Positions 29,855 to 63,120 of a stretch of 64,000 bases of DNA are shown one piece after another. The notes below the pieces were generated by a model, which was not told the origin of the DNA, made no database searches, and was given only the letters and a program-made list of their open reading frames with translations. The position numbers and the translations under genes were made by a program. Where the stretch lies: the IMG/VR virus record IMGVR_UViG_3300050821_017570, positions 1 through 64,000 of that record. One strand, 5' to 3'. The stretch's first letter is position 1, and every line of letters begins with the position of its first letter. This DNA is from a virus.

Positions 29855-29877
29855 ATGTTAGACGCCTATTATGGGGA

Positions 29878-32754
29878 TTAACCCATCACCACAACTCTAT
29901 ATTGGCCAGCCGTCGGGGCGACGGCGAAGTTAATCGTCGCAGTGTTGGTGGTCGTAGTCTCGACATCGGTCTCAATGTAGGTCAAGAGACTCGTGTCATA
30001 GACCGCGATCACCACATCCTGGGTACCCAGGTTATGGGTAACCGTGTAGGTGGTCGAGCTGGTCGACAAGGTAGTGGCGTACTTGTTAACCGTGCCGGTA
30101 CCGGTGGTCGAGATAGTGATCCCACCCACACCATTGACGATGCTGATGTTGGTGCCGGCCGTCAGGGTCGACAGAGTGAACCCACCACCGTTACCGATCA
30201 GGAGGGTACCGTTGGCAGCCGAATTGGTGTTCAGACCGGTGCCACCATGGGTGTTCGAAACGATCCCACTGATGCCGCTGGCGTTATAGACAGGGCTGGT
30301 GACGAGTCCATATGTGCTCAGCGCGGTCGCAACATCACCCGTCTGCTGGATCACTGGGGTGGCGCCGAAGAAGGCAAACTTCTGCGTCGATACCGTACCG
30401 ATCATCGTGCCGGTCGTGGATCCGAAGATGAAGTTGTACCCATCTCCGATCATCACGTTACCGTTGAAGGTCGACTGACCCGACTCAACAATAAGGGCGT
30501 TGTTGTTGGTGATGCTGACGTTGGTACCGGCGATCGGAGCGCCGGAGATCGCAACGGTAGCGCCGTTGGTGATCGTCTGAAGCGCAGTATTGCAGGTATA
30601 GGTGGGCGCGAGAATCCGGAACTCGCGCTGCGTCACTGGGGTGCTGGACGCCCACTGTACGGTGTGGTTGACACCCCAGAGGACACTCGTGACCTCAGTA
30701 CCTGAGGTCATCAGGTTGAGGGTTCCACCTGTGTAGTTGAAGCCCTGAGGGGTACCACCCGAAGTGGTCGACTGGGTTAGCGCCAGCACCGCACCCGTGG
30801 AGGTCACATAGGTGGTGCCGCCAAAGAACGATGCACCAGCCGCAACCTGTAGGGCATACGAGTTGGTGATGCTGACATTAGTACCAGCGATTGGTGCGCC
30901 ATCGATCGAAACGGTTGCGGCGGTAGCGATGACTTGGCTAGACGCACTGCAGGCGTAGGTCGGATTGGTGATCCGGATCGCGCGCTGGGTCGACGGAGTG
31001 GAGGTGATCCAGGTCTCGGTCGCCGACAGATTGATATAGAAACTGTTGACCTCAGTACCTGAGGAGAGGTTGGTATGGGCACCACCGGTAAAGGTAAAGC
31101 CAATCGGAGCACCCGAGGTGGCGGCCGACTGGGTCAGAACGAGTGGTGACGTACCCTGGACGGTGAGACCGACACCGGAGCTGAACGTGTAGCCAGCATA
31201 CCCGGTGATGGAGTTGGTACCGTTCCACACGGTAACCTGGCCGGCGGTACCAGAACCGGTGATCGATGAGGTCGCATTGATCGTGATGGTGCCAGCACCA
31301 TTGACGATCGAGATGTTGGTGCCAGCCGTTAGGGTGGCGAGGCTGAACCCGGACCCATTGCCAATCAGGAGGGTGCCGTTGGCTGCCGAACTGGTGTTCA
31401 GACCGGTGCCGCCGTATTGGGCCGAAACCGCAGTACCGTTCCAGGTACCGGTGGTGATAGTGCCGAGTGTGGTGATGGAGGTCTGACCAACGTAGCCAGA
31501 GTCGATCGAAACCACCGGGTTACCCGCGATGCCAGCGCCGTTGCTGATATCGATCTGACCAGCCGTACCCGTGAGGGTTCGAGGGCTAAACGTTCCCGCA
31601 CCCGTGCAGGCAACGAAACCCGTCGATGTCACGATCTGACTGGCAGAATCAACACGACCGAAAACATCGACCGTCACGCTTGTGTAGGTACCAGCGGAAA
31701 CGCCGGTATCGGAGAGTTCGAGCTGGCCGCCAGTGAATTGGAAATTCGAAGTCGCGTTCACCGAGATGGTGTTGACGCTTTTGCTGATACCGTTTCCAGC
31801 GATGATGTCGGCCGCGCCAGTGAACTGAACAAACGACAGGCTGGTCGTATTCAGCGTGATGGGCGCGAGCGTATCGAGGATCCAGCCGGTATTGGCGTTC
31901 GAGGTACCCTCGATGATGAAGGTGTAGATGCCAGTCGTGACAAGAGCCGACGAGTTCGCGTCAGTCGAACGGGTCAGAATGTAGGGAGTGGAACCACTGC
32001 CGGTCTGGGTAACAACGTAGATACCGTTATAGGGGGCGTTGCCACCGGACTCGTTCTTAACCAACACACGATCATTGGTGAGCGGGCTTCCGCCGTCGAT
32101 CGAAAGGGCACCGTTGGCGTTAGCGGTGAGGGTACCACCGGCGGTCGAGCTGAACGTGTAGGCAGGGAGGGCGGCCGTGGTGGCCCACTCACAGGCAGCC
32201 TTCGGAGTCAGACCGGCGGTTGACGCGTCAACATATGCCTTGGTGGCCGCATCCTGCGGGTTAACCGGATTGGCCAAGTTGGTGATGTTGTAGCCACCGT
32301 TTGACCAGCTACCCGTAGGGGTCGTCAGGCTATTGACGGGAATCGCCTCAACCGCGGTGGTGAAGTCGCTGATCGTGCTGGCGGTTTGGGTGCCAGTCTG
32401 GTTGGCACGGTTCAGATAGTAGGAACCGTTGTAGTAGGGGCCACCCGAACCGGTCGAATCGAGAGTCGTCGCCTGGCTGGCCGTACCCGTTAGATTGGCG
32501 GTGATGGTGCCGGCAGAGAAGTTACCCGACCCGTCGCGCAGTACCTCAGTGTTGGGAGTATCGGCAGTCGTCGACGGATAGATGTACCACGAAGTGGTTC
32601 CGTCGTACCAGCGAGGACGATCCACATCCGAGCGAAACCACAGCTGACCAACAACCGGTGAACCAGGATCAGAGCCGAGCTGCTGCAACTGTACGTTGAG
32701 CAGCTGCAGCTGTGTCAGGTCGATCGGGGTCGTGAACTTCTTGGGTGCAGACAT
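29878..32754 (-). CDS. Tail fibre protein
   Basis: The 958-residue protein has an N-terminal segment that may attach to the tail (KKFTTPIDLTQLQLLNVQL, then GQLWFRSDVDRPRWYDGT). A phage fibre repeat with NDRVLVKNESGGNAPYNGIY and SFVQFTGA follows, and then repeated HGGTGLNT-S-ANGTLLIGNG blocks. The C-terminal 100 residues (VTHNLGTQDVVIAVYDTS) resemble a fibre tip domain. It lies 23 bases upstream of the 1115-residue fibre gene. Confidence 0.9.
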   Translation of the reverse strand: MSAPKKFTTPIDLTQLQLLNVQLQQLGSDPGSPVVGQLWFRSDVDRPRWYDGTTSWYIYPSTTADTPNTEVLRDGSGNFSAGTITANLTGTASQATTLDSTGSGGPYYNGSYYLNRANQTGTQTASTISDFTTAVEAIPVNSLTTPTGSWSNGGYNITNLANPVNPQDAATKAYVDASTAGLTPKAACEWATTAALPAYTFSSTAGGTLTANANGALSIDGGSPLTNDRVLVKNESGGNAPYNGIYVVTQTGSGSTPYILTRSTDANSSALVTTGIYTFIIEGTSNANTGWILDTLAPITLNTTSLSFVQFTGAADIIAGNGISKSVNTISVNATSNFQFTGGQLELSDTGVSAGTYTSVTVDVFGRVDSASQIVTSTGFVACTGAGTFSPRTLTGTAGQIDISNGAGIAGNPVVSIDSGYVGQTSITTLGTITTGTWNGTAVSAQYGGTGLNTSSAANGTLLIGNGSGFSLATLTAGTNISIVNGAGTITINATSSITGSGTAGQVTVWNGTNSITGYAGYTFSSGVGLTVQGTSPLVLTQSAATSGAPIGFTFTGGAHTNLSSGTEVNSFYINLSATETWITSTPSTQRAIRITNPTYACSASSQVIATAATVSIDGAPIAGTNVSITNSYALQVAAGASFFGGTTYVTSTGAVLALTQSTTSGGTPQGFNYTGGTLNLMTSGTEVTSVLWGVNHTVQWASSTPVTQREFRILAPTYTCNTALQTITNGATVAISGAPIAGTNVSITNNNALIVESGQSTFNGNVMIGDGYNFIFGSTTGTMIGTVSTQKFAFFGATPVIQQTGDVATALSTYGLVTSPVYNASGISGIVSNTHGGTGLNTNSAANGTLLIGNGGGFTLSTLTAGTNISIVNGVGGITISTTGTGTVNKYATTLSTSSTTYTVTHNLGTQDVVIAVYDTSLLTYIETDVETTTTNTATINFAVAPTAGQYRVVVMG

Positions 32755-43888: not shown

Positions 43889-44743
43889 TTAGTTCCAGAC
43901 AGGGGACTGTACGTACCAAGCGCCAGCGATACGGGTGGCGATCGCCCACGTGCCGGTCGCTAAGGTGGAACTCCCTGAGATCTGAAGCTGTGTGACCGGT
44001 ACGCCAGTATCGGTGTACGGTTGGGTTGGGCCCAACGCGTAGAAATTCGCCGTATAGGAGGCACCTGGACCACCACCGGTGATTTCACAAAGACAGGTGT
44101 TGCTGCCCAGTGGACTCACCGACCATGCGTAGCTGTAACCCATCGGGAGGGCACCGGTAATCTGGCTGGCTGGCAACCGGGCGTTAATCAGCTGGAGCGC
44201 CCCTGGCATGGCGGCATCCATGGCAGGATTCAGGGCAAACACACCATCGAGATTCGTCGACAGGTATCCCATCTTGGACCGTGTCGAATGCCCCGTTTGG
44301 TCCACAAACTCCAGCTCCATATACTGGCCCGCATAGGCGGTCTGATAGGTTGTGGTACCAAAGTTGAGGTAATTGGTAACCGCCACGGCAGTGAATGTCG
44401 GTTCAATCACCGTGCTGTAGCAGGTCGTCGTTCCCGCATCAACCGACGCATCCTTACGAATCAGAACGAACGGTTGATTCGCACGTATGTACGAGATGGG
44501 GAGGGTTGGTGCCACCACGGTGCCGAACCAAAATAGGTTCGCCGCATACGCCGTACACGGTATGGCGTTCGGTAGCATCACCCTGACGGTCAGATTCGTT
44601 CCAGGCGGACCCGCCGGCGTATCAGAGTCATTGATCACGCAGGTTGCCAAGGCCTGGCGCTCCCCTGCGGGACTCGACATGTCGGTCGAGTCCTCAACAG
44701 TGGTCTGAATGACCCGCCCCCTAAATAACGCCGGATCCGACAC
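43889..44743 (-). CDS. Structural-type protein, unknown
   Basis: The 284-residue protein is again beta-rich (VRVMLPNAIPCTAYAANLFW, YMELEFVDQTGHSTRSKMGY, GTWAIATRIAGAWYVQSP). The final part resembles fibre or decoration domains. Three bases separate it from the 349-residue gene. It overlaps the start of the next gene by one base. Confidence 0.75.
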   Translation of the reverse strand: MSDPALFRGRVIQTTVEDSTDMSSPAGERQALATCVINDSDTPAGPPGTNLTVRVMLPNAIPCTAYAANLFWFGTVVAPTLPISYIRANQPFVLIRKDASVDAGTTTCYSTVIEPTFTAVAVTNYLNFGTTTYQTAYAGQYMELEFVDQTGHSTRSKMGYLSTNLDGVFALNPAMDAAMPGALQLINARLPASQITGALPMGYSYAWSVSPLGSNTCLCEITGGGPGASYTANFYALGPTQPYTDTGVPVTQLQISGSSTLATGTWAIATRIAGAWYVQSPVWN

Positions 44744-45628: not shown

Positions 45629-46267
45629 TTAGGCGAGGGGGTTCACCACAGTGACGGCGATCGTGCACGAGCCAGCCGTCAGAACATTCAGGTCCGCACC
45701 AGTCGAGGTGGCGGTCAGTAGGATGGCGGTCGAGCTAGTGGCAGACTCGATACCAGCGACCCCACCAAGCTCAATATTGTCACCAGCCGTCAGAACCGTG
45801 TGGGCGGCCATGTACTTGGCGAGCGTACCGGTGATACCAACCTCAACCGTCACGTTGGTGACCGAAGGGCCAGCAAAGTGCGGGGTAGCGGCAGCCTGGA
45901 TCAGATCCACGCCAACGATCTTGTAGCTGGCAGGAAGCGTCAGGAGGGTAAACGAACCAGTCGTCACGGCGCCCAGGGCAACCAGCTCAGCATACCCAAC
46001 CGTAATCGGAATCACGACCGGGATGTTGACGACATTGGAAATCGTCGCCGGGGTCAGGCTAGCGTAGGGGTTGGTCACGCAGCGCCAGCTTGCCGCACCA
46101 GCCGCGTTGCTCAGGCAGACGTACTGATTCCGAGGGCTGACCGACGTATCGACCCAAAGGGTGCCCTCAAAGATGCCGAGGGTGCTGTCATCGGACACGG
46201 TCGGCGCACGGTCCTGATAAACCGTCCAGCCAAGATCAGTGAGTAGACGCTTCGTTAGGGTATGCAT
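45629..46267 (-). CDS. Tail or decoration protein with shared adaptor module
   Basis: The start at 46267 (MHTLTKRLLTDLG, 212 residues) leads to APTVSDDSTLGIFEGTLWVD and YVCLSNAAGAASWRCV, the same adaptor as in the fibre proteins at 32764, 33430 and 36036. The C-terminal part (about 65-212) is a beta-rich domain (ASYKIVGVDLIQAAATPHF, VTVEVGITGTLAKYM). It has its own terminator, so it may be separately expressed. Confidence 0.85.
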   Translation of the reverse strand: MHTLTKRLLTDLGWTVYQDRAPTVSDDSTLGIFEGTLWVDTSVSPRNQYVCLSNAAGAASWRCVTNPYASLTPATISNVVNIPVVIPITVGYAELVALGAVTTGSFTLLTLPASYKIVGVDLIQAAATPHFAGPSVTNVTVEVGITGTLAKYMAAHTVLTAGDNIELGGVAGIESATSSTAILLTATSTGADLNVLTAGSCTIAVTVVNPLA

Positions 46268-46341
46268 GATAATCCAAGCTTGTGTTGCGCTTAGTATAAG
46301 GGGGCCTATCAGGCGTACCAGATAGGATTTTCTTAGACCCG
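46268..46341. other. Short intergenic region
   Basis: About 74 bases between the adaptor protein and the next small gene. I see no promoter or hairpin of note. Confidence 0.4.
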
Positions 46342-46506
46342 CTAGTGGGTGGCCCAATACTGGTTCGCCGCATGACGTTCCAGCTGTTTCGCCAATTCTC
46401 CCCACACCGGGTCGCCTGTCAAACTACCCCTATACCAGGTCATCGGAGCCCCTACTTCGCCCTCGTCGTCCCGTATGTAGTCCCGACCCTCATACTCGAC
46501 CCGCAC
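46342..46506 (-). CDS. Small protein, GTG start
   Basis: A 54-residue ORF with a GTG start preceded by AGGATGAACCC. It contains VEYEGRDYIRDDEGE and WGELAKQLERHAANQYWATH. The predicted composition is typical of small phage proteins. Confidence is moderate because there is no recognised family. Confidence 0.55.
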   Translation of the reverse strand: MRVEYEGRDYIRDDEGEVGAPMTWYRGSLTGDPVWGELAKQLERHAANQYWATH

Positions 46507-46549: not shown

Positions 46550-46738
46550 CTATGTGGCGGCCTGCGGAGGCTCATATGGCTCCGGAAGCGGCTGCCACGC
46601 CACCACGTCCGGAACCGCCCAGCCGACCCCACTGAGCCAAAACGCCTGCTGGACCGCTCGCTTACCCTGGCTGTTGCAGCGGCTCACCAGGTAGTTGCCA
46701 CCCGTCTTGGGCACGCAGGGAGAGGTGAGCCAGGTCAT
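46550..46738 (-). CDS. DUF551-like small phage protein
   Basis: The 62-residue protein shows GGNYLVSRC, a Trp-rich core, and a final WQPLPEPYEPP. This pattern matches the DUF551 family, in which GG-YLV and W-PLPEPP are conserved. The start overlaps the next gene by four bases. Confidence 0.7.
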   Translation of the reverse strand: MTWLTSPCVPKTGGNYLVSRCNSQGKRAVQQAFWLSGVGWAVPDVVAWQPLPEPYEPPQAAT

Positions 46739-46965
46739 TTGGGTGCCTGTGGATCAATCCACTGGAACTGAAGGACCGGGTCAGCCTCGTCTGCCTTGGG
46801 ATCGATAATCCATTTGGCCACCCCATGGTTGATCGCCTGGGACCGTACCACAGCGGTCCCCATCGCCTCACCAATCGGAATGCCAATCACGACGCCAAAT
46901 AAAACGATACCAATGATAATTCCGAAGAAACCGAAAAGTTCGCTAGTTGTTGGCTTATCACTCAT
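46735..46965 (-). CDS. Small membrane protein
   Basis: The 76-residue protein has one transmembrane helix (FGFFGIIIGIVLFGVVIGIP) followed by a soluble tail ending VLQFQWIDPQ. The pattern resembles small phage membrane proteins ending in an aromatic F-W motif. RBS AAGGAAACCAA precedes the start. Overlap with the next gene is four bases. Confidence 0.75.
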   Translation of the reverse strand: MSDKPTTSELFGFFGIIIGIVLFGVVIGIPIGEAMGTAVVRSQAINHGVAKWIIDPKADEADPVLQFQWIDPQAPK

Positions 46966-49490: not shown

Positions 49491-49862
49491 CTAACAAGTA
49501 AGTTCGCCGACGCTCTGGTCGTCGATCGTGTAGATAAACCTGGTACACCCAAGGTGCCCAAGCAGACGCTGACACTGCTGGCACGGACGGGCCAGCCGGA
49601 TCCGATGATCGCGGCCTATCCGGACGTTAATGCAGCAGAATTCATCTCGCGAGAGCCGACGCCTCGCTTTACTGTAGGCGCAATACTCCGCATGGAGGGT
49701 GCGCTCATAGTAGGGGTTCGGCTCATCTATATTCATGCCACACGAGAGGATCTCTCCGTGCTGGAAGATAAAGCTAAAATGTTTGAACCCGAGAGTGTTC
49801 TGGAACCGACGGTCAAAGGCGCGCCGGATACACTCCCGGACCACCTTCTGACCGGGTCTCAC
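49491..49862 (-). CDS. Cytidine-deaminase-fold (dCMP-deaminase-like) enzyme
   Basis: The 123-residue protein has the zinc and catalytic motif HAE near residue 57 (TLHAEYCAYSKA) and the second zinc motif PCQQC near residue 93, as in deoxycytidylate and cytidine deaminases. Residues C, C and H bind the catalytic zinc and Glu is the proton shuttle. It could supply dUMP for thymidylate synthesis, but RNA or nucleobase editing is not excluded. Confidence 0.85.
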   Translation of the reverse strand: MRPGQKVVRECIRRAFDRRFQNTLGFKHFSFIFQHGEILSCGMNIDEPNPYYERTLHAEYCAYSKARRRLSRDEFCCINVRIGRDHRIRLARPCQQCQRLLGHLGCTRFIYTIDDQSVGELTC

Positions 49863-49863: not shown

Positions 49864-49938
49864 TTACTCTTTCGTATTCCTAAGGTACCACAACAGGATC
49901 AGCAGCCCAATCACCAACATGATGAGGAGATCAACCAT
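49864..49938 (-). CDS. 24-residue single-helix membrane microprotein
   Basis: An ORF of 25 codons encodes a hydrophobic helix (VDLLIMLVIGLLILLWYLR) with a basic C-terminal end. Its start overlaps the end of the next gene by eight bases, and it lies one base from the deaminase gene, so it is well packed in the operon. Function unknown. Confidence 0.6.
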   Translation of the reverse strand: MVDLLIMLVIGLLILLWYLRNTKE

Positions 49939-51439: not shown

Positions 51440-51629
51440 TCCATATGAATGTAACGGGCTGGCGACGCAGGCAAGCTTTGGCCCGCTCGAACGGCACCTC
51501 TTCCCCGGCGATCCAATCGACCGTACACCAGGGATACTGCATCCCACCTAGGATCTCGACCCGGAACTCCAGATGGAGATTCCCGGCGCTATCTTCCCAC
51601 GCACGCTGGAACACCCCGCCCCACCTCAT
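51162..51629 (-). CDS. Protein overlapping the HTH gene in a second frame
   Basis: The start at 51629 overlaps the preceding gene's stop by four bases. The N-terminal 60 residues (WGGVFQRAWEDSAGNLHLEF, WCTVDWIAGEEVPFERAKAC) look like a genuine domain. The C-terminal 90 residues, rich in Ala/Pro/Gly, coincide with the HTH gene and may simply be the other-frame translation of it. Coding through the whole overlap is uncertain. Confidence 0.6.
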   Translation of the reverse strand: MRWGGVFQRAWEDSAGNLHLEFRVEILGGMQYPWCTVDWIAGEEVPFERAKACLRRQPVTFIWNVSATESAITWLQSDAMATTTPGPGSHQLGYRGPAGEVTEDGSGQANPPGMPAPQTSAATAPVATPIHPTVAGADPAHPADGATGAVGPADR

Positions 51630-52075
51630 AGGTTGAGCCGGTCGGCCCATTCCTTCATCATCTGGATCTGGACCTCATGAGACGACCTCTGGAAGGCCTC
51701 TTGGTTCTCAGCAAACAGGTCAATCAGCTGCCAGTTATCGGCCGCAACCGCCGCACGGATCCGGGCGATGGTTTGGCGATCCTGGTCCAACATGGCGAGC
51801 CGCTCTACACATTCCTCGCGTTGGATATCAAGCAGCCGGATCTTATCGTGAATCTCTCGCAGCTCGGTCAGGCTGGCTGCCGATTCGACCCAATAGGCGA
51901 CCGTTATGGACCCAACAAAAACCGTCACCACGGCTGCCAACGTGGTCAGCACACCATCGTGCCCCACACCCGCACATAGGGTCAGTCCTGCCAATACTGT
52001 CGTGGCGACCAAATAGCCGATCCTGGTACGCCAGACCATCCGGACGAATCTTTCGTACTCGGACCGACTATTCAT
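51626..52075 (-). CDS. Membrane protein with coiled coil
   Basis: The start at 52075 gives 149 residues. Two transmembrane helices (IGYLVATTVLAGLTLCAGV, LTTLAAVVTVFVGSITVAYW) are followed by a charged coiled coil of about 75 residues (LTELREIHDKIRLLDIQREE). A cytoplasmic coiled coil with a membrane anchor suggests a scaffold or signal element. Confidence 0.75.
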   Translation of the reverse strand: MNSRSEYERFVRMVWRTRIGYLVATTVLAGLTLCAGVGHDGVLTTLAAVVTVFVGSITVAYWVESAASLTELREIHDKIRLLDIQREECVERLAMLDQDRQTIARIRAAVAADNWQLIDLFAENQEAFQRSSHEVQIQMMKEWADRLNL

Positions 52076-52250
52076 CTGGTTGGCCAGATGTCCGGAATGC
52101 CATATAGACACAAAAGATGATCAACGGGATTTGGAAGCATAAACACCACCAAGTATCTTTTGAGAACCCGATCAACATGAGCCCGAGGTTCAGCATCGCC
52201 AAAGCGACCCACCAGAGGGCTACCAGGGTACGTAACTGTTGTGGCGACAT
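52068..52250 (-). CDS. Small two-helix membrane protein
   Basis: The start at 52250 gives 60 residues with two transmembrane segments (LVALWWVALAMLNLGLMLIG, WWCLCFQIPLIIFCVYMAF). It is packed between two other membrane-protein genes. Function unknown. Confidence 0.7.
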   Translation of the reverse strand: MSPQQLRTLVALWWVALAMLNLGLMLIGFSKDTWWCLCFQIPLIIFCVYMAFRTSGQPDE

Positions 52251-52251
52251 G

Positions 52252-52512
52252 TTATCTTCGATCCTGAAACGTATCGACGGGTTGTTTCGATTGCAGCTTA
52301 CGCAGCCGAACGAACGACCAGATGGCCCCCACGATGCCCGCGCAGTCCACCACACCGCAGAAAAGACTGAACCAGATTGACTGGTCAATCACACTGATGA
52401 TGGTCCAAAACCCCATGATGGCCAAACTGACGAGACTGCAGGTGAGGCTCTGGTGGGCCCAATGGACCTCCGACTTATCCTCATCCGTCAGTCTGCTGTA
52501 CCAATCGGTCAC
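52252..52512 (-). CDS. Small two-helix membrane protein
   Basis: The 86-residue protein has a polar N-terminus, two helices (LVSLAIMGFWTIISVI, WFSLFCGVVDCAGIVGAIWSF) and a basic C-terminus. It overlaps the upstream gene by four bases. Function unknown. Confidence 0.72.
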   Translation of the reverse strand: MTDWYSRLTDEDKSEVHWAHQSLTCSLVSLAIMGFWTIISVIDQSIWFSLFCGVVDCAGIVGAIWSFVRLRKLQSKQPVDTFQDRR

Positions 52513-52730
52513 AGGTCGTCCTGTCGAGCGAGTGGTGCTTTCTCTACAATGGGCTTGGCCTGATCTACCGCGCTAACGTAGTGTGCCTCTCGATCAGCTT
52601 TCTCGGCTCGCAGCTGTTCCAGTTCGGCCAGCAACGGATCGACATCGGGCGCGGCATAGAACAAACCAGTCGCAGAGTGCTCCATGCGGTTGGTGGCCCA
52701 ATCGTCTGAATATTTTTGAAGCTGAATCAT
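52509..52730 (-). CDS. Small helical protein
   Basis: The 73-residue protein has a charged helical middle (DPLLAELEQLRAEKADREAH). No motif is recognised. Four-base overlaps with both neighbours support expression. Confidence 0.65.
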   Translation of the reverse strand: MIQLQKYSDDWATNRMEHSATGLFYAAPDVDPLLAELEQLRAEKADREAHYVSAVDQAKPIVEKAPLARQDDL

Positions 52731-53182
52731 ACACCCAATCCTAGTATGAGTCTAAGACGTGAACGAATATCCATCAGGACGAGACCAAGGTGGTTCTCGC
52801 CAACTCCATTACACCGACCCCAGAATTGGTCACCCCAACCGTTCTCCTCGACCAATTCATGTGGGTATGTGTTGACCAGACGTTCTGCCAGATCCGCATG
52901 CCGGGTGAATTTGTCCAGGTTGACCGAATACATCACCCCAACCCGCACGTCGAGCCAATCGGGACGATGGCGCTCCGGCTGGGTTCGACCCAACCGCATG
53001 GCCTGCCCACAGGTCAGCGTCGTACCCGGCAGGGCAAACACGGCCCGCATCCTGACGTCGGGTAGCTTGGCCGACTGGTAAGCGTGCTCGGTCGACGGAT
53101 ACAGCAGACCCTCGTACGCCACCTCACAGAGATGGAAGTTGGAGAGCCAGCGGTACTCGCCGTACATCTGATCGATCGTCAT
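52727..53182 (-). CDS. NADAR / YbiA-like protein
   Basis: The 151-residue protein shows the hallmark of the YbiA/NADAR superfamily: YRWLSNFHLCEVAYEG and YPSTEHAYQSAKL near residues 10-45, and later DLAERLVNTYPHELVEENG followed by WGDQFWG. Members act as N-glycosidases; some reverse ADP-ribosylation of DNA guanine and others act in riboflavin metabolism. A phage copy could counter host ADP-ribosylation-based defence, but this is inference. Confidence 0.88.
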   Translation of the reverse strand: MTIDQMYGEYRWLSNFHLCEVAYEGLLYPSTEHAYQSAKLPDVRMRAVFALPGTTLTCGQAMRLGRTQPERHRPDWLDVRVGVMYSVNLDKFTRHADLAERLVNTYPHELVEENGWGDQFWGRCNGVGENHLGLVLMDIRSRLRLILGLGV

Positions 53183-53858: not shown

Positions 53859-53924
53859 TCAGAGAGATTTCATCCATAGGGATACAAGGCCTGCTAGAAC
53901 CAGCAAGATAAGAAACCAGATCAT
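53859..53924 (-). CDS. 21-residue single-helix membrane microprotein
   Basis: An ORF of 22 codons with ATGA overlap to its upstream neighbour encodes MIWFL followed by a hydrophobic helix and a short basic tail. Its N-terminus matches that of the 124-residue gene at 54336. Function unknown. Confidence 0.58.
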   Translation of the reverse strand: MIWFLILLVLAGLVSLWMKSL

Positions 53925-55584: not shown

Positions 55585-55634
55585 TTAGAATCCTTTTCAT
55601 CCATCTGAATGATCTCCACGGGTTTACGGCTCAT
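55581..55634 (-). CDS. Possible 17-residue microprotein
   Basis: A short ORF of 18 codons with ATGA-type overlaps to both neighbours: MSRKPVEIIQMDEKDSK. It fills the gap exactly, which supports expression, but its length makes this uncertain. Confidence 0.35.
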   Translation of the reverse strand: MSRKPVEIIQMDEKDSK

Positions 55635-55860
55635 TGTGGTCCCACCTGACGTAGTAGGTGACGTTCGTCAGAACACCCAATGGACCAGTATGCGGCACAA
55701 TCGCCGTGACGGTACCCTCCTGGTCAGGATGGTCAACGTTGTAGACGCGTTCGCCAACCGAGTAGTCGTACCCACAGGCAAACCATGGAGTCGCCTGGTC
55801 ACGTACCCCGCCACAGCCCATCAGTCCCAATAGGGCGGCCAACATGATAAGTTTTCGCAT
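55624..55860 (-). CDS. Lipoprotein
   Basis: The start at 55860 gives 78 residues. A signal sequence with lipobox LMGC (MRKLIMLAALLGLMGCGG) suggests a lipid-anchored envelope protein. The mature part contains YDYSVGERVYNVDHPDQEGT and a final VTYYVRWDHNEP. It may act in superinfection exclusion or lysis, but this is speculation. Confidence 0.72.
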   Translation of the reverse strand: MRKLIMLAALLGLMGCGGVRDQATPWFACGYDYSVGERVYNVDHPDQEGTVTAIVPHTGPLGVLTNVTYYVRWDHNEP

Positions 55861-55866
55861 AACCAC

Positions 55867-56055
55867 TCACTTCTCGGCGAGGCAATCGCCATCTGTGTTG
55901 TAGAGATCGTAGACAAACGGACAGCGCTTGCGCTCAGAGCACCCATCACATGTGAAGGCCGGATCACGCCTCAGCTGCTGGTTTGCATCAATCAGCGCTT
56001 GGGCCCGAATGCTCGCGAGTTGCTCATCGGTCAGAAGTCGCTCCCGTTTAGGCAT
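55867..56055 (-). CDS. Cys-rich small protein
   Basis: The 62-residue protein ends with CDGCSERKRCPFVYDLYN followed by a final Cys, a four-Cys pattern that may bind zinc or an iron-sulfur cluster. Overlap with the next gene is eight bases. Confidence 0.7.
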   Translation of the reverse strand: MPKRERLLTDEQLASIRAQALIDANQQLRRDPAFTCDGCSERKRCPFVYDLYNTDGDCLAEK

Positions 56056-56443
56056 CGGGTGTCTCCTTGGCTGGATGACACTCGTTAAGCCCGTGATCGA
56101 TCCACGTTTGCTCAGCTGCCAACATGGCAGCCCGAGAGATCGCCAGCTCAGGCGTCGTCTCGGTCACCTCGGCATGGAGGTCCAGCTGAGTATGATGGAA
56201 CTGAACGTACACCTTCTGATTCAGCATCCGCAGGGTCAGACTCCACCCGAGCTGATCCATCCGGTGGGCGACCTGCCAGGCGTCTGCCGGATCGGTCGTG
56301 GGGTTCCACTCGTCGACATGGAGCCCAACCGGATCCCACACCTGATAGCATGCCAGGAAAAGCCCTGACGCGTTCGTACGCTCCCAGCCCATCACCTGTT
56401 GGGCCACCTGCGCATCCAGTATCTGCGGAAATTCGTGGCTCAC
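56048..56443 (-). CDS. Phage ABA-sandwich-like protein
   Basis: The 131-residue protein has EWNPTTDPADAWQVAHRM, a central LTLRMLNQKVYVQFH, and ETTPELAISRAAMLAAEQTW. The order W-P-TD-x-A-W-V, then AISRAA, matches the phage ABA sandwich domain family of unknown function. Confidence 0.75.
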   Translation of the reverse strand: MSHEFPQILDAQVAQQVMGWERTNASGLFLACYQVWDPVGLHVDEWNPTTDPADAWQVAHRMDQLGWSLTLRMLNQKVYVQFHHTQLDLHAEVTETTPELAISRAAMLAAEQTWIDHGLNECHPAKETPDA

Positions 56444-56453: not shown

Positions 56454-56558
56454 TCATCGGAACAGATCTTTCAGTGCTAGGTCGTAGAACACCCACAGGC
56501 CACCAAACGCAGCCAGCGTGATGATGAGCCTGATGCCAACCCGATTGATTGGGTTCAT
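56454..56558 (-). CDS. 34-residue membrane microprotein
   Basis: MNPINRVGIRLIITLAAFGG and a C-terminal basic end; one transmembrane helix. ATGA overlap with the upstream gene. Part of a run of five consecutive micro-membrane proteins. Confidence 0.65.
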   Translation of the reverse strand: MNPINRVGIRLIITLAAFGGLWVFYDLALKDLFR

Positions 56559-56689
56559 GAGCCAGCCTCATACAGCCAGACCAGCAGGGTGCCGACCACG
56601 GGTGCGATCACCAGGATGAGGCCCACGTAGAGCGCCATGTTGTCGTTCCACTTGTTACGACTGAACCGGCGGTTTCCAAATCGACGCAT
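56555..56689 (-). CDS. 44-residue membrane microprotein
   Basis: A strong AAGGAG box precedes MRRFGNRRFSRNKWNDN. A basic N-terminal segment is followed by one helix (MALYVGLILVIAPVVGTLLV). ATGA overlap with the downstream gene. The strong RBS supports expression. Confidence 0.7.
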   Translation of the reverse strand: MRRFGNRRFSRNKWNDNMALYVGLILVIAPVVGTLLVWLYEAGS

Positions 56690-56698
56690 TCGTTCTCC

Positions 56699-56794
56699 TT
56701 AGAAGATGTCGAGCCACCTCAACAAGAGGAGCACGAGAATAACAATCGCTCCGAACATTCCAACCGCTAAGAGTGCGGTATCTAACCCATCCAT
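56699..56794 (-). CDS. 31-residue membrane microprotein
   Basis: MDGLDTALLAVGMFGAIVIL and an Arg/Trp-containing end form one helix. It lies between two other microproteins with minimal spacing. Function unknown. Confidence 0.65.
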   Translation of the reverse strand: MDGLDTALLAVGMFGAIVILVLLLLRWLDIF

Positions 56795-56795
56795 A

Positions 56796-56882
56796 TCATT
56801 TCTTTCGTGTCAGCCAGCAGAAGAGACCAAACAGTCCACCCGCCAGACAGATCATGACGATCGTAGCGAGGAAGACACTCAC
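56796..56882 (-). CDS. 28-residue membrane microprotein (GTG start)
   Basis: A GTG start overlapping the upstream stop (GTGA) encodes SVFLATIVMICLAGGLFGLF and a basic tail (TRKK). One transmembrane helix. Function unknown. Confidence 0.6.
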   Translation of the reverse strand: MSVFLATIVMICLAGGLFGLFCWLTRKK

Positions 56883-57100
56883 CTGCCACCCAGCCGATAC
56901 AGGATGCTGAAGTGGACCCACTTGCCCAGCGTCATAATGGCATCGCCAAGCCGACTGACCAGGCCAGCTAGCCAAACGATCGCCACGGCCAGATAGTCAA
57001 CCAATGCGGCCCCTACCCAACAGGCCACCGCCAACGGAAGCCAGCAGATCGTCCACACCACGATGATTGCCGTCACGGCAAACTCACGAATCTTGTTCAT
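56879..57100 (-). CDS. Two-helix membrane protein
   Basis: The 73-residue protein has two hydrophobic segments (TAIIVVWTICWLPLAVACWV, LVDYLAVAIVWLAGLVSRLG) and an amphipathic end (WVHFSILYRLGGR). ATGA overlap with the upstream gene. It heads the micro-membrane cassette. Confidence 0.72.
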   Translation of the reverse strand: MNKIREFAVTAIIVVWTICWLPLAVACWVGAALVDYLAVAIVWLAGLVSRLGDAIMTLGKWVHFSILYRLGGR

Positions 57101-57495
57101 AGGTGGTCCTCAATCACGTCGGCTAGTTTGCTGAAACTAACACCGTCATCGTTCGCCTCGCTCAGGCAGCCATACTGCGTACGACCACACTCAAAATCAA
57201 AGTGCGGCTCATCGTCCCGAATCAAGGCGGCCTTACCCTTGAGGGCCCACTTCCAGACTTTCTCTGGTGGGTGCGTCTCATTCGACTCGCCCTTGGGGCT
57301 TGCCTGAAACTCAAAGTCACCTGCTTCGGGTTCGATCCACTGGGCCTTCGGATGCTCTTTCCGGTACAGCTCACACAGCACACCCAACACGCAGAATCGC
57401 TCGCCACGATGCATGACGTTACGGATCTTTCGGTAGCGACCGGACCGTAACGCACGCACCAGCTTCTTCTTAATTTTTGGTTTTAACACAACCAT
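57097..57495 (-). CDS. Conserved phage protein with RFCVLGVLCELY motif
   Basis: The 132-residue protein has RALRSGRYRKIRNVM, then RFCVLGVLCELY near residue 33, and ends YGCLSEANDDGVSFSKLADV. This is a widespread conserved family in phages and bacteria of unknown function. RBS AAGGGAACCAT. Cys residues might bind metal. Confidence 0.75.
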   Translation of the reverse strand: MVVLKPKIKKKLVRALRSGRYRKIRNVMHRGERFCVLGVLCELYRKEHPKAQWIEPEAGDFEFQASPKGESNETHPPEKVWKWALKGKAALIRDDEPHFDFECGRTQYGCLSEANDDGVSFSKLADVIEDHL

Positions 57496-57504: not shown

Positions 57505-57816
57505 TTAGGATTCGTACAACAGATACATGAGATCGCGGTCATGCAGGTCTTCAGGATATCCACTATATCCGTAAAAGTATAAGTTACTCCATTCGCTCCA
57601 AGTGCTTGCCGCCACTCGGGCGCTATCGCTCTCAACCGTGCCATCACTAGCGTAGCTGACACAGGTGTAGGTGAGGTGATACTGCCAACGATGCGTGTGG
57701 CCACCGCGATCATGCCGCTGGCCAGCACTACGGTCGATTCCTCGGATCGTGTACCGATATAGATGGTTTCGAGTCATCCAGACCTGACCGATCCGTAAGG
57801 GTGCCAAATCTGTCAT
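57505..57816 (-). CDS. GQxW family protein (member 1)
   Basis: The 103-residue protein has the family's N-terminal motif LRIGQVWMTRNHLYRYTI and the C-terminal LMYLLYES. The middle is Ser/Thr/Tyr-rich. It is the leftmost of about ten paralogues in 57.5-64 kb. It overlaps the next gene by four bases. A small beta-barrel is likely, and the function is unknown. Confidence 0.72.
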   Translation of the reverse strand: MTDLAPLRIGQVWMTRNHLYRYTIRGIDRSAGQRHDRGGHTHRWQYHLTYTCVSYASDGTVESDSARVAASTWSEWSNLYFYGYSGYPEDLHDRDLMYLLYES

Positions 57817-58103
57817 GGTGGAATCTTTCCATTTGGGTCACCAGCGGTTTCGAAACTTACTGGTGAGATCTCGCTAGCATACTCGCAGGTCTCGCCAGCC
57901 GCTCGGTTCAGCATACTGCTCGCCAATTGACCGTTTCCAAACGCGACCTTGATCGCTTCAAGCGTCTCGGCTGAAATCACATCGGTATGTGGGAACGTGC
58001 CGACACGTACCCACATCCCACGAGGTAGCATTGCGTATACGGCCTGCTGATCATCGAACCGAGAGACCACAAACTCTGGCACAAAATGTAACGTCTCATC
58101 CAT
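57813..58103 (-). CDS. Unknown protein
   Basis: The 96-residue protein has FVPEFVVSRFDDQQAVYAML, GTFPHTDVISAETLEAIKVA and NRAAGETCEYA. No family is recognised, and it lacks the GQxW motif. It overlaps both neighbours by four and eight bases. Confidence 0.62.
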   Translation of the reverse strand: MDETLHFVPEFVVSRFDDQQAVYAMLPRGMWVRVGTFPHTDVISAETLEAIKVAFGNGQLASSMLNRAAGETCEYASEISPVSFETAGDPNGKIPP

Positions 58104-58452
58104 GGTATGCTTTCGGGTCCCACAAGAGGGTTATGAGGTCCACACCTTCGGGATGATTTGGTGTCTGATGAAACCACCAGGCGGTCGAACCCATGTATGC
58201 GGTATAGATGGTGTCGCGATCGCCTAACGAAATGTCAGGATAATCTGGATGAAGCCCACACCGATATCCGTGGGAGTAGATCCGAACATCATACTTACCC
58301 AGACCGGATCGCACTCTCGTTACGTGCACAATCTCAACACGGTGTGACTGATCGCGCAGCTGCCAAATCTGACCCGCCCGCAGCATGGGTGGATAGACCC
58401 CCCAGTGGAGCGGGAACAACCAGCCCGGCAGGTTACTGACGAACCGCCACAT
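58096..58452 (-). CDS. GQxW family protein (member 2)
   Basis: The first ATG at 58452 abuts the upstream stop (TGATG), giving 118 residues; the ATG at 58386 would start just before the motif. It contains MLRAGQIWQLRDQSHRVEIV and ends VDLITLLWDPKAYHG, the clearest example of the C-terminal D-L-I-T-L-L-W-D-P motif. The middle is Asp/Tyr-rich. Confidence 0.78.
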   Translation of the reverse strand: MWRFVSNLPGWLFPLHWGVYPPMLRAGQIWQLRDQSHRVEIVHVTRVRSGLGKYDVRIYSHGYRCGLHPDYPDISLGDRDTIYTAYMGSTAWWFHQTPNHPEGVDLITLLWDPKAYHG

Positions 58453-59105
58453 CAGGTGGCCCGACAGAAGCCAAGTGAATCCAAGGTCTCGTTCGGGTCA
58501 CGGAAGTATCCGATGATCTGCTTGGGCGTCACCCGGTTGGTCCCACTCATGGTGCCACCGTTCTGGATCATCTGGATCAGAATGCCGACCGTGTCGATCG
58601 TCAGGTTCGACTGGCCGGTTTGTTCACGCAGGTACTTGGCGAACTCAGGCCAACTGGCCAGCTGGGCGTGCCCCTGACGGCTCATGATGCCTTCGCACAC
58701 GTAGGCCAACCCAATCGAGCAGCTCGGGAAGTGGGTCAGCAGTTGAACTTCGGGAATCTGGTAGAGCACCGACTCAACGTCGGCGACCGGGTTACGGAGG
58801 TAGCTATCGCACCAGCTGATGGCTCTCAGGAGGCCCAGACTGCGGGTGCAACCGATGACCTGTTCGGCTCGTAGGCTAAACGTCTGATCGAGCCATTCGG
58901 TCATCCGCTTGTCACGATACTCGTACCCACAGAGCGTGGTGGCCTCAAGCCCATCACCCCATGGCATGGACAGCGTCTGGGCCAACACGAGGTTCCACTG
59001 GGTCAGCTCGGGCTGCCGGACGAACTCAGGTGCATTCTTCAGGACGACAAGACCTGCTTTGGTCGCGCGAGCCAATTGGCCGGCGCGTTTCGATTGTTTC
59101 GACAT
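58452..59105 (-). CDS. Unknown protein
   Basis: The 217-residue protein has a basic N-terminus (RAGQLARATKAGLVVLK), a middle with SLGLLRAISWCDSYLRNP, and a Ser/Cys-containing C-terminus. No family is recognised. It lies between GQxW members 2 and 3 and shares their transcript. Confidence 0.65.
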   Translation of the reverse strand: MSKQSKRAGQLARATKAGLVVLKNAPEFVRQPELTQWNLVLAQTLSMPWGDGLEATTLCGYEYRDKRMTEWLDQTFSLRAEQVIGCTRSLGLLRAISWCDSYLRNPVADVESVLYQIPEVQLLTHFPSCSIGLAYVCEGIMSRQGHAQLASWPEFAKYLREQTGQSNLTIDTVGILIQMIQNGGTMSGTNRVTPKQIIGYFRDPNETLDSLGFCRAT

Positions 59106-59120
59106 GATGTGCTTTCTAGT

Positions 59121-59765
59121 TCACGAACCTGAACTGGTATCAGCCGGGTTGGGACCAGGATCCTGATCCGACGTCGGACGGGCCGGCTTCGCCATATCGT
59201 CCGGCTTGGGCCAATTCAGCGGACAGGTTCGCTGGCTCGAAACCGAACTATCGTCATCAAAGTACTGAACCCGTACCTCACTGGGGAGGCGACCGGCCTC
59301 AATCGCCTTGGCCGCACCCTCAGGCCAATCAAGCCGACGGGTCACCTCATGAGCCGTAGGTTCCGACATCACGCTGGCCTGGATCTCCTTGGCCAGCCCT
59401 TCGCCGTGCCGCTTATGGGCCGCCGGATCACGCGCGTGAGCCAGCCAGGTGACCCCCATGGCGGCCAGCTCGGGATCCTGCTGGGCCGACTTACCAGTGA
59501 CGAAGTCATTGTGAGCTTCATCGAACCCAGCATACCCGTGCTGTCTCGCCACCTGATCGATCTTGTGGGCCTGATCTCGTTGGTAGCGAATGCTGGCCCT
59601 ATGGTTGCGCCAGTACTTGAGTGCGATCCGGAAGGCGTCCCAGGCCGCATGGACGACAGATGGGCGACCCGTCGCTACAGGCATTCGGGTGGCTGGGTCG
59701 TATCGGTAGTTCTGCTGACGCTGCGAATGGTAGGCTGACCGAAACGACTGAATCAGGTTGAACAT
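59121..59765 (-). CDS. Unknown protein
   Basis: The start at 59765 follows AAAGGACCAT and gives 214 residues. The N-terminal half is helical with KYWRNHRASIRYQRDQAHK; the C-terminal part is polar and Pro-rich (KPARPTSDQDPGPNPADTSS). No motif is recognised. Confidence 0.65.
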   Translation of the reverse strand: MFNLIQSFRSAYHSQRQQNYRYDPATRMPVATGRPSVVHAAWDAFRIALKYWRNHRASIRYQRDQAHKIDQVARQHGYAGFDEAHNDFVTGKSAQQDPELAAMGVTWLAHARDPAAHKRHGEGLAKEIQASVMSEPTAHEVTRRLDWPEGAAKAIEAGRLPSEVRVQYFDDDSSVSSQRTCPLNWPKPDDMAKPARPTSDQDPGPNPADTSSGS

Positions 59766-59773
59766 ATGGTCCT

Positions 59774-60262
59774 TTAATCCAAATGATGGAGGAGCCACCA
59801 GACCGCCACTAACTCGCGACGGCTCATCAGGTGGAGGGGTCGGGCAGTCGCGCGTAACGCGACGATACGGTCAAAGATGGGGCCACAATCGGCTCGCTCG
59901 TCGGCCGACACCATCTCACAGATCTGCTGATCCAGCAGATCGATCTGGTGGGTCAACCGCCTAGACTGACCAGTCTGGAACAGCTCAGTCAGGCGAATCG
60001 CATCGGCCGCCTCATTGGCCATCAGGTTGGGCCAATAGATCAGGTGGTAGCGAATCTGACTGGTGACATAACTCAGTATGCCGACCTGATAGTCAGCCGA
60101 CGTGTAGTCACCGTGTGGGTCCACCAGAGCGGGCAAATGGACCTCGTCAGCCCACCGGCCGGCTGTGACGGTATCACCATAGGGCCAGTACCGTTCCATC
60201 GCTACCTCATGCGTGGCGAGCTGTTGACAGAACTCTGGCGTCAGTACCGATGGAGCACCCAT
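59774..60262 (-). CDS. Unknown protein
   Basis: The 162-residue protein has ADYQVGILSYVTSQIRYHLI and EYFQ-like segments, with a helical C-terminus (RRELVAVWWLLHHLD). RBS AAAGGACCCACT. Function unknown. Confidence 0.65.
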   Translation of the reverse strand: MGAPSVLTPEFCQQLATHEVAMERYWPYGDTVTAGRWADEVHLPALVDPHGDYTSADYQVGILSYVTSQIRYHLIYWPNLMANEAADAIRLTELFQTGQSRRLTHQIDLLDQQICEMVSADERADCGPIFDRIVALRATARPLHLMSRRELVAVWWLLHHLD

Positions 60263-60272
60263 AGTGGGTCCT

Positions 60273-60560
60273 TTATAGGAGTTGGGTCTCTACATGCAAG
60301 GCAGGATCGTACAGACACTGCGTGAGATCCCAATCCGATCCACACCGAGAGTGCCAGTAGTTGGCCGTGGCGATCCACCGGTAAGGCATGAGTTCACTCA
60401 CATGATCAGACCAACAGCCAGACGGCAACATACGGCGGGTATGCGGATGAACCCCTTCGGCATCAATGGTAGTGTCAACGATACGGTATCGATGCTGCTG
60501 GCTCCGACACAGCCAGACCTGACCTGGCAGCAATCTGCTGGGGTTTAGGATGGGGTCCAT
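60273..60560 (-). CDS. GQxW family protein (member 3)
   Basis: The 95-residue protein has LLPGQVWLCRSQQHRYRIVD near residue 10 and ends WDLTQCLYDPAL. It fits the GQxW family pattern with a slightly diverged C-terminus. The next gene overlaps its start by 16 bases. Confidence 0.75.
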   Translation of the reverse strand: MDPILNPSRLLPGQVWLCRSQQHRYRIVDTTIDAEGVHPHTRRMLPSGCWSDHVSELMPYRWIATANYWHSRCGSDWDLTQCLYDPALHVETQLL

Positions 60561-60814
60561 AGGAGTTGCCAGGTGTTGTTATCTCCGTCTTGAAACGCGA
60601 CATCGGACAACACTTTCGACACACGAAACGCCCATCCTGGGGACTGAATCGCTCCTTCATAGTTCCCCCAGTAATTCCATCCGAACCAGCGGTCACCGTG
60701 CCGGATGATGGCAACCCGATTGACTGATTCCTGTCGCAACTCAAAATATTCCCGATACATCCGCATCCAGATCTGTCCATGTCTGAACCGAATCGATGAT
60801 TTGTGTGGTTCCAC
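60545..60814 (-). CDS. GQxW family protein (member 4)
   Basis: The 89-residue protein has FRHGQIWMRMYREYFELRQE and ends WQLLWTPS. The middle has several Trp and Gly residues. The family motif is clear at the N-terminus. Confidence 0.75.
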   Translation of the reverse strand: MEPHKSSIRFRHGQIWMRMYREYFELRQESVNRVAIIRHGDRWFGWNYWGNYEGAIQSPGWAFRVSKVLSDVAFQDGDNNTWQLLWTPS

Positions 60815-60815
60815 G

Positions 60816-61172
60816 TTAGGTCTCGGTCGACCCTGCCTCAGGGTCCCAGTAGAGGAGAATGTAGTTGGCCTGGTCAGACGGGGTGTAGAACTGGGTAGGT
60901 GTCATGACTTTGATATCAGGCAGATAGTCAGAGAGTGGTCTAACCTCCGCATCATCACTTTCCAAAAATCTGAACACTGCGCCGCCGTGTGGTTTCAGCT
61001 CATACCCACCGTAGTAGCAGCCATGGAGACTCAGCCGCCCGCTAGGACCTTTGGCTCGGAAAACTGCGAAGTATTCGGTCATACGCTCGTAACGGCGTTC
61101 CTCACTGCCACAACGGTCTAATAGTGTCCCATGTTGGCGCCAAATCTGAAAGTGTTTGAAATGGTGCTTCAT
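60816..61172 (-). CDS. GQxW-like family protein (diverged member)
   Basis: The 118-residue protein starts FKHFQIWRQHGTLLDRC and ends NYILLYWDPEAG. HFQIW replaces the GQIW of the other members but keeps Q-I-W, and the end keeps the L-x-Y-W-D-P pattern. It overlaps the upstream gene by four bases. Confidence 0.68.
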   Translation of the reverse strand: MKHHFKHFQIWRQHGTLLDRCGSEERRYERMTEYFAVFRAKGPSGRLSLHGCYYGGYELKPHGGAVFRFLESDDAEVRPLSDYLPDIKVMTPTQFYTPSDQANYILLYWDPEAGSTET

Positions 61173-61483
61173 ATGATGGCCTGTTCTGTGTCTTCATACG
61201 TGAGAATCCAAGCGGTGCCGTGTGGTTCTACCAGCACGGTGGGCTCGATAAGTTTGGGCTGGCTAAGACCGTGTTGGAGTTTCCACGGCTTGGAAACACG
61301 CTGTAGGTAGGTTATTACCGTGAGACCACCTCGTACGGCGCTACGCTTGAAGAACCAACCACCCAAACGATCCCTGGTATTGTGGTGCCGCATGACCGCC
61401 ATCAACCACGGATCCTCAGGATCATCTGTAGCCTGCCAGAGCTGGAAGTGCCTGAAACAATCGTAGGGGTTCGGAGCCGTCAT
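61169..61483 (-). CDS. GQxW-like family protein (diverged member)
   Basis: The 104-residue protein has CFRHFQLWQATDDPEDPWLM and ends WILTYEDTEQAII. HFQLW is similar to the neighbour at 60816, so the pair forms a subgroup. ATGA overlaps on both sides. Confidence 0.65.
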   Translation of the reverse strand: MTAPNPYDCFRHFQLWQATDDPEDPWLMAVMRHHNTRDRLGGWFFKRSAVRGGLTVITYLQRVSKPWKLQHGLSQPKLIEPTVLVEPHGTAWILTYEDTEQAII

Positions 61484-61770
61484 GTTGGACTCCAGACGAG
61501 ATGGATGAGCGGGTAGTTGTCTAGCCCAGTGTGTCCTTTATCGCGGCTCCAAACTCCTCCGTAGCGATAGAACGTATTGGTGGTTGTCCTATGGTCACAA
61601 CTATACTTGGTTTCACAATCAATCGAATCGTCTCGTTTATACCGCTTGATAATCTCAACGATCTGGCAGGTCACCTCTTGATCGTCTGTCATCCAGATCT
61701 GACCGGCCTGTAGGTCACACGGTAAGCACGAGTCCTGGGTTGAACCCATTGGTTTCTCCTCGATAGCCAC
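61480..61770 (-). CDS. GQxW family protein (member 7)
   Basis: The 96-residue protein has CDLQAGQIWMTDDQEVTCQI and ends YPLIHLVWSPT. Cys residues near the N-terminus are extra. Alternative start at 61749. It overlaps the metallophosphoesterase by 56 bases. Confidence 0.75.
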   Translation of the reverse strand: MAIEEKPMGSTQDSCLPCDLQAGQIWMTDDQEVTCQIVEIIKRYKRDDSIDCETKYSCDHRTTTNTFYRYGGVWSRDKGHTGLDNYPLIHLVWSPT

Positions 61771-62614
61771 GCGGGTTGGCTACCAAACGGGTCTGGTCGA
61801 TATGAAAGTCAAACTCAGTATGGGTGTGACCGAAGCACCAGAGGTCTGGCTGGGTTCGGTAGATCAGATCATCCAGTGGGGCACAGAAATAGGGGTTCAG
61901 CCAATGGCCACGGAACTTTGGCGCAATCGCCTCCTCTGAGGGAATCCAATGGGTCAGCACGATCCGCTTGGGAGTAGGGATCTGCATGGCGCGATCGGCC
62001 CGTCGGAGCCAACCCGTTAGCCTCATCACGGCATCCTGGTGGGCCTCAATATGTCGGGCTGGAGTCCATTCAAACCTATCCCGCATGATGAGGTTCGGGC
62101 TAAAGTCGCTCACCCCTACCGAGGTGAGCCAGCAGTTGAGCCCAACCTCGGTGAGGCCGCCAGGTGGCGTCACCTGAATGGGAACCAACGGGTTCAGTGG
62201 GTTGACCAGTCTGAGGCCGTCACGCTCGATCCGCTGTCTCAGATCGGGGTCCAGCGATATGGTGAGGCCGCTCCACAAGGGGGTTCCGTAGATCTCATAG
62301 GGTTGGCCCCCAACCATCAGGGTGGTGGCCTCGTTGTGAAGCAACGTCACATGCGGACATTCCTGAAGTGCGGCCTTGAAATACGGTGACAGGAGATCTT
62401 TATGCCGGAGATCCTGAGAGTCGGTGTGGTAGAAGTCATGGTTACCGAGCACCAAATAGACAGGCCGTTCAATCTGGTTGAGAAAATCGATCACCAGTTT
62501 GGGTTTAGACCAGTGGCCCAAATCCCCACATACGCAGGTGATGTCGGCCTCCACCTCCGGCAACCCAAGGTAGCGGCCCTCAAGATGGAGATCACTAATG
62601 AGGTGAAGCCGCAT
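61715..62614 (-). CDS. Calcineurin-like metallophosphoesterase
   Basis: The 299-residue protein shows the full motif set: DLHLEG near residue 8, GDLGHW near 31, GNHDFYH near 57, HWIP near 229 and GHTHTEFD near 261, ligands for a two-metal centre. Bacterial relatives hydrolyse cyclic nucleotides or other phosphodiesters. A phage copy could degrade a defence signal molecule or process nucleotides; the substrate cannot be told from sequence. Confidence 0.9.
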   Translation of the reverse strand: MRLHLISDLHLEGRYLGLPEVEADITCVCGDLGHWSKPKLVIDFLNQIERPVYLVLGNHDFYHTDSQDLRHKDLLSPYFKAALQECPHVTLLHNEATTLMVGGQPYEIYGTPLWSGLTISLDPDLRQRIERDGLRLVNPLNPLVPIQVTPPGGLTEVGLNCWLTSVGVSDFSPNLIMRDRFEWTPARHIEAHQDAVMRLTGWLRRADRAMQIPTPKRIVLTHWIPSEEAIAPKFRGHWLNPYFCAPLDDLIYRTQPDLWCFGHTHTEFDFHIDQTRLVANPRGYRGETNGFNPGLVLTV

Positions 62615-62881
62615 TTAGCCTTCTGGGTTGTAGATAAGGGTTATGAGATCAAGCCGTTGAGGATCGGTGGTCCCAAGATCATCGAAACGATAATAGGAGC
62701 CATCAGGCGATGGAACCCACCTATACGTTAGATTAGCTAGTCGCATACCATCGGTATGAAACCATCGACACTGTATCCGACCATCTGGCCATGGGTTTGT
62801 ATCTACTTTCAGACGCCAATCCTGATCCCTAGAGAGCCAAATCTGCCCGGCCTTAAGCGGAGCTAGCACGGTGGCTCCCAC
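62615..62881 (-). CDS. GQxW family protein (member 8)
   Basis: The 88-residue protein has LKAGQIWLSRDQDWRLKV and ends RLDLITLIYNPEG. It is one of the best examples of both conserved ends. Its stop immediately precedes the metallophosphoesterase start. Confidence 0.8.
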   Translation of the reverse strand: MGATVLAPLKAGQIWLSRDQDWRLKVDTNPWPDGRIQCRWFHTDGMRLANLTYRWVPSPDGSYYRFDDLGTTDPQRLDLITLIYNPEG

Positions 62882-63120
62882 AGCAGAGTGATGAGATCGT
62901 CCTGTGATGGATTACTCGGCAGGAACGCCCAATAGGCATTATTATAGGATGGTCGCCAATGAAGTTTTGTGGCACCGAAACCAGCAGACCCGGTCGAACG
63001 ATCCCGAAACGTGACTTCAAGCCAACCCTCAGTCGACGTAACGGGCTCACCAGTTACCTGGATACGACGATCCTGTCTCCGGCAGAGCCACACCTGGCCC
63101 TGTCGTAGTGGTACTAACAT
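62863..63120 (-). CDS. GQxW family protein (member 9)
   Basis: The 85-residue protein has LRQGQVWLCRRQDRRIQVTG and ends DDLITLLWEPPC. It overlaps its downstream paralogue by 19 bases. The family pattern is complete. Confidence 0.82.
   Translation of the reverse strand: MLVPLRQGQVWLCRRQDRRIQVTGEPVTSTEGWLEVTFRDRSTGSAGFGATKLHWRPSYNNAYWAFLPSNPSQDDLITLLWEPPC

Follow-up and report, generated by a model that had tools for sequence, protein, structure and literature searches.

A cassette of five consecutive genes for very small predicted membrane proteins (28-73 residues) was found at 56454-57100 in the 64,000-nucleotide stretch of DNA analysed here (the window; bases 1-64000 of a 187,139-base IMG/VR virus record from a large uncultured phage). 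We put the probability that these genes encode host-membrane accessory peptides at about 0.5; by analogy with other phages, the proteins probably act on the host membrane early in infection. In architecture the cassette is a further example of a type already known from the ndd.x genes of phage T4, and it is not a homologue of ndd.x.

All five ORFs are encoded on the minus strand, which the preliminary description had not specified and which holds 76 of the 83 long ORFs in the window. They take up the entire 653-nt interval separating a 132-aa gene from a 131-aa gene, and in the order of translation they encode 73, 28, 31, 44 and 34 aa. The 132-aa gene (57097-57495, minus strand) lies upstream in the same compact row; its soluble product matched phrog_18067 (unknown function; E = 2.8e-13) and, weakly, a protein of Synechococcus phage B23 (E = 1e-4). 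It shares a 4-nt ATGA overlap with the 73-aa ORF (56879-57100; ATG start), whose stop lies in a second 4-nt overlap, GTGA, with the GTG start of the 28-aa ORF (56796-56882). A single nucleotide then precedes the ATG of the 31-aa ORF (56699-56794), the weakest of the five, which is without a clear Shine-Dalgarno sequence. A TAAGGAG box overlapping the stop of this ORF lies 5 nt before the ATG of the 44-aa ORF (56555-56689), which in turn overlaps the 34-aa ORF (56454-56558; GAGG box) by 4 nt (ATGA). At the end of the cassette, a gap of 10 nt separates the latter from the downstream 131-aa gene (56048-56443, minus strand), which encodes a Phage_ABA_S domain (PF18066, E = 7.8e-12; phrog_8017, E = 2.3e-10). 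ATGA or GTGA overlaps are thus present at three of the six junctions. The 4-nt overlap is also the commonest overlap type among larger genes (13 of 114 junctions here and 24 of 89 in G001, a related phage), and overlaps alone are weak evidence because a TGA stop after A or G gives such a start free. The ORFs, their lengths, the packing by overlaps or gaps of a few bases and the strong AAGGAG box at one gene all agree with the preliminary description.

Further downstream in the same row, an 80-aa predicted lipoprotein (55624-55866, minus strand) is possibly related to the cassette. It has a GTG start (an ATG at 55860 would give 78 aa), and its N-terminus, MRKLIMLAALLGLMGC, is lipobox-like by eye. 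Its profile matches were weak: phrog_7772 at E = 0.0024 and, below significance, the Cor superinfection exclusion profile at E = 0.06. Scans for promoters and terminators gave the same counts as in shuffled sequence, and no Rfam match to structured RNA was detected at the cassette at E ≤ 1.

Each of the five proteins contains a 19-residue hydrophobic core. The Kyte-Doolittle mean is 1.89-2.54 for the four ORFs called by the gene caller (2.48 for the 28-aa protein), and the 31-aa ORF, which the caller omitted, is also above the threshold of 1.6. The 73-aa protein has two hydrophobic stretches, and the other four are single-span proteins. In the 44-aa protein the N-terminus is strongly basic (flank charges +6 and -2 on the N and C sides) and should, by the usual rule of thumb, be inside. 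The same rule was used for the topology of the 28-aa protein, which has a basic C-terminus (TRKK), and the N-flank of the 34-aa protein carries a charge of +3. Hydrophobic helices with basic ends, as originally described, are therefore present in the 44-, 34-, 28- and 73-aa proteins, whereas the 31-aa protein has the core but acidic ends (net -1 on both flanks). A single-sequence AF2 model of the 73-aa protein showed one helix from residue 2 to 70 (pLDDT 89.6, pTM 0.47), in which one span and a hairpin are not separable. Taken together, the products are predicted single-span or hairpin peptides that would insert in the host inner membrane.

The codon log-likelihood, trained on the 83 long ORFs, favoured the proposed frames jointly by +40 bits; the remaining five frames across this DNA scored between -86 and +7.6. 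Individual scores were +13.5 (73 aa), +9.4 (44 aa), +9.2 (34 aa) and +5.6 bits (28 aa), and the score of the 31-aa ORF was neutral (+0.2 bits), giving it no codon-usage support by itself. A 96-aa plus-strand ORF overlapping the cassette scored -11.7 bits and was ruled out as a competing gene. We then looked for chains in which ORFs of 20-110 aa, each holding a 19-residue window with a mean hydropathy of ≥ 1.6, follow one another at a spacing of -20 to +15 nt. The cassette forms a chain of five ORFs spanning 637 of 657 nt, the sole chain of at least four on the coding strand of the whole 187-kb phage. The longest chain was three in 5,000 first-order Markov sequences (reached five times) and two among 1,769 antisense windows from this genome, and a chain of at least three was never found in six whole-genome shuffles of G000. 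Permutation of gene order gave p = 0.0003 with the 31-aa ORF and p = 0.003 without it. Adjacent pairs of small membrane genes exceed the expectation from random gene order both here (6, with 1.1 expected) and in G001 (10, with 3.7 expected); gene counts are approximate, the gene caller being simple and self-written. In our estimate, the four ORFs other than the 31-aa one are very likely to be real genes, and the 31-aa ORF is likely to be one. The five separate small genes would be translated from one compact row through stop/start coupling.

Seven related IMG/VR records (G001-G007) were found through capsid and portal proteins. G001 (IMGVR_UViG_3300033412_000002) has 76% identity in the capsid and 62-63% in the portal protein; capsid identity is 73-74% for G002-G005, and portal identity is 54% for G006 and G007. 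Structural genes are shared with these seven relatives, but no counterpart with a meaningful score was found in them for the 132-aa neighbour or for any of the five cassette proteins. Likewise, no close DNA relative was found in 50,697 phage records, and no IMG/VR protein relative for the 132-, 73-, 217- and 131-aa proteins. The block between the conserved anchors at 43889-44743 and 61715-62614, both present in G001, measures about 17 kb here and about 3 kb in G001 (28282-31271), where its content is different, and nearly all genes of the 17-kb block are without homologues in the relatives. To judge from this gene content, the cassette lies in an accessory block that is replaced wholesale, and missing conservation therefore does not undermine the frames. 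The preliminary description had named lack of conservation in related phages as grounds for discarding the genes; the locus is indeed absent from all seven relatives, rather than present with decayed frames, and the genes are not refuted. In the reading we favour, this tailed phage of about 187 kb carries the cassette within an accessory (host-takeover) block that turns over fast.

Other genes of this block include a NADAR domain gene (52727-53182; PF08719, E = 4.8e-22), a candidate reverser of ADP-ribosylation. NADARs are described as antitoxins to DarT that reverse guanine ADP-ribosylation (PMC11125620). The gene is consistent with a host-conflict block but is not proof of one. A deaminase-like gene (49491-49862) is a further accessory enzyme of the block. 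Three consecutive predicted two-span proteins of 137, 60 and 86 aa (51626-52512, minus strand; gene calls) form a second run that the preliminary description missed. It had also listed two lone ORFs similar to those of the cassette, both on the minus strand: the 24-aa hydrophobic ORF (49864-49938), with an 8-nt overlap with the upstream gene, is plausible (codon score +5.2 bits), but the 21-aa one (53859-53924), which has an ATGA overlap with its upstream gene, is doubtful (-2.2). A 76-aa one-span protein is encoded at 46735-46965; compared by eye, its C-terminus (SQAINHGVAKWIIDP...FQW) looks similar to the C-terminus of a protein encoded in G001 (21596-21850; TEAIKRGYAEWVVVDP...FRW).

Elsewhere, a small paralogue family of about 24-29 members, mostly 77-116 aa, occupies 57505-63120 in the window and continues in the record up to 181081. 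Its motifs are an N-terminal GQ[IV]W and a C-terminal DLIxLLWxP-like stretch. Example positions are 57505, 58096, 60273, 61480, 62863, 64152, 64412, 64648, 64917, 65818, 66881, 67684, 68719, 68949, 70532, 77625, 84296, 115319, 119441, 119682, 122931, 128029 and 128394. Among five aligned members, identity to the first was 24-34%; motif counts in the relatives were 0-3, the large expansion being found in this single phage. Four members tested had no Pfam match, and AF2 run from five members gave one low-confidence all-beta model, with no PDB match. At 108867-110274 of the record, a ThiF/E1-like gene (PF00899, E = 1.1e-20) adjoins a gene whose product ends in a ThiS-like stretch (PF02597, E = 5.8e-7). 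Judging from these domain matches, the two may form a phage-encoded pair for ubiquitin-like activation.

The closest parallel to the cassette is found in phage T4. The chain test applied to T4 recovered five consecutive ORFs at 166432-166996, which are the annotated ndd.2a, ndd.3, ndd.4, ndd.5 and ndd.6. The ndd.2-ndd.6 genes, between ndd and denB, are five consecutive ORFs of 26-42 aa that overlap or nearly do so; the annotation predicts an inner/outer membrane or periplasmic location for their products, and the region is non-essential. The cassette shares with this architecture a run of at least four consecutive packed small hydrophobic ORFs and a variable accessory location. In contrast, no sequence similarity to the five proteins was detected (phmmer --max search of the T4 gene calls, lowest E = 0.49), ndd, denB, stp and ac were not recognised beside the cassette, and the two phages belong to separate groups. 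Because sequence similarity between the clusters is absent, we claim a class of architecture and not homology. It is known that T4 makes more than 100 small early products, some of them lethal to the host and many from deletable regions (PMC6071114). The T4 deletion sa-delta-9 takes out 52.1, ac, stp, ndd, ndd.1-6 and denB; in its presence phage-stimulated phospholipid synthesis is virtually abolished, yet phage production continues at a rate 50% that of the wild type (PMC6071114). Since many genes are deleted, the lipid effect is not assignable to the ndd.x peptides.

The related phage G001 also has runs of small membrane ORFs, at 6310-7053 (four members), 14404-14893 (three) and 45643-46355 (four), with several 4-nt overlaps. 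These runs, however, are in other places, consist mostly of larger proteins and have no detectable homology to the five. G001 has 29 small membrane genes, the highest number among the ten genomes of the gene-call comparison, whereas the larger relatives G003, G004, G005 and G007 and phage Arash showed no comparable clustering of such genes, a point against the host-membrane reading. The mycobacteriophage Amelie protein gp43 (58 aa) is likewise a small one-span phage protein; its function is unknown and it inhibits the host when overexpressed (PMC11797047), but its gene is not in a packed run of five. Each cassette peptide would most likely act early in infection, to the benefit of the phage, by binding or perturbing either a membrane protein of the host or its membrane directly. 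Such action would be dispensable and host-specific, as in the deletable T4 region with ndd.1-ndd.6, ac and stp.

The host-membrane reading has two narrower forms, superinfection exclusion and anti-defence, and we regard each as possible, on the unlikely side. For superinfection exclusion, at least one peptide would block DNA entry or the phage receptor apparatus of the inner membrane. Size and membrane location are like those of PfsE (PA0721) of a Pseudomonas Pf phage, a predicted inner-membrane protein of 30 residues that binds PilC (PMC8764522), and a lipoprotein-like gene is nearby. PfsE, however, is the product of a single gene of a filamentous phage, its YXWGW motif is in none of the five proteins by inspection, the match of the lipoprotein to Cor is not significant, and the need for five peptides is left unexplained. 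For anti-defence, the peptides would counter the host's anti-phage systems by inhibiting those effectors that are anchored in the membrane. The NADAR gene in the same block (PMC11125620) is in line with this, as is the T4 stp product (26 aa), encoded near the ndd.x genes, which targets the host PrrC restriction system; on the other hand, no sequence link to known anti-defence proteins was found in PHROGs or Pfam. Indeed, PHROGs and Pfam gave no family match for the five proteins that would indicate either function.

The preliminary description had suggested that the five, as a dense set, could act on the host membrane, for example in lysis, superinfection exclusion or membrane-based anti-defence. 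The general reading is supported, with five distinct genes for small membrane proteins, of the kind that phages use against the host envelope, in a fast-replaced accessory block; its lysis version is weakened. The 73-aa protein with its two hydrophobic stretches is holin-sized and a lipoprotein-like gene lies downstream, as a cassette of small holins, antiholins or spanin parts might have. However, a canonical Phage_holin_4_1 holin is encoded at 178840-179760 (PF05105, E = 4.4e-16; phrog_199, lysis; 43% identical in G001), and a 3D-domain/peptidase-like candidate lies far off at 82685-83074. No endolysin was recognised beside the cassette, nor was an adjoining set of endolysin, holin and spanin genes as in a phage lysis cassette. 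Lysis is therefore disfavoured, and we consider it improbable. To about the same low degree, the five peptides could be parts of a single membrane assembly rather than independent effectors: a polytopic device divided among five coupled genes, with its stoichiometry set by stop/start re-initiation, e.g. a pore or an anti-defence plug. If so, split devices of this type would also occur in T4 (ndd.x) and G001, where their sequences are unrelated.

Profile searches of the five proteins against PHROGs and Pfam returned nothing significant (best PHROG E = 0.027; Pfam matches all under curated cut-offs). A Gemini_mov match to the 34-aa protein (E = 0.002) was under its cut-off and was dismissed as hydrophobic-segment noise. 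That a single six-span membrane protein has been broken by frameshifts, through decay or assembly errors, is very unlikely, and we rejected it: the summed length of 210 aa with about six hydrophobic stretches would suit such a protein, but the concatenate had no Pfam family match, no stop is more than about ten bases away from a start codon (one of these starts having a TAAGGAG box), and the N-terminus of the 44-aa protein is a long basic tail. Least probable of all are chance open frames within a non-coding stretch. In their favour, ATGA overlaps are easily produced after TGA stops, homologues were not found and the 31-aa ORF is without codon signal; against them, the run length was never matched by chance models, the joint codon signal is strong (+40 bits), and a 653-nt non-coding gap, here without an RNA family match, would be unusual for a compact row.

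The reading as host-membrane accessory peptides places the cassette in a class that has drawn little functional assignment. T4 has long been known to have runs of micro-membrane proteins, to which no function is assigned, and annotation readily passes over genes as short as these. A chain of small hydrophobic ORFs is a simple computable signature by which more of them may be located. The cassette itself is an ordinary-looking instance rather than a new system. That other large phages have this architecture, built from sequences that are unrelated, points to a recurrent strategy directed at the host membrane.
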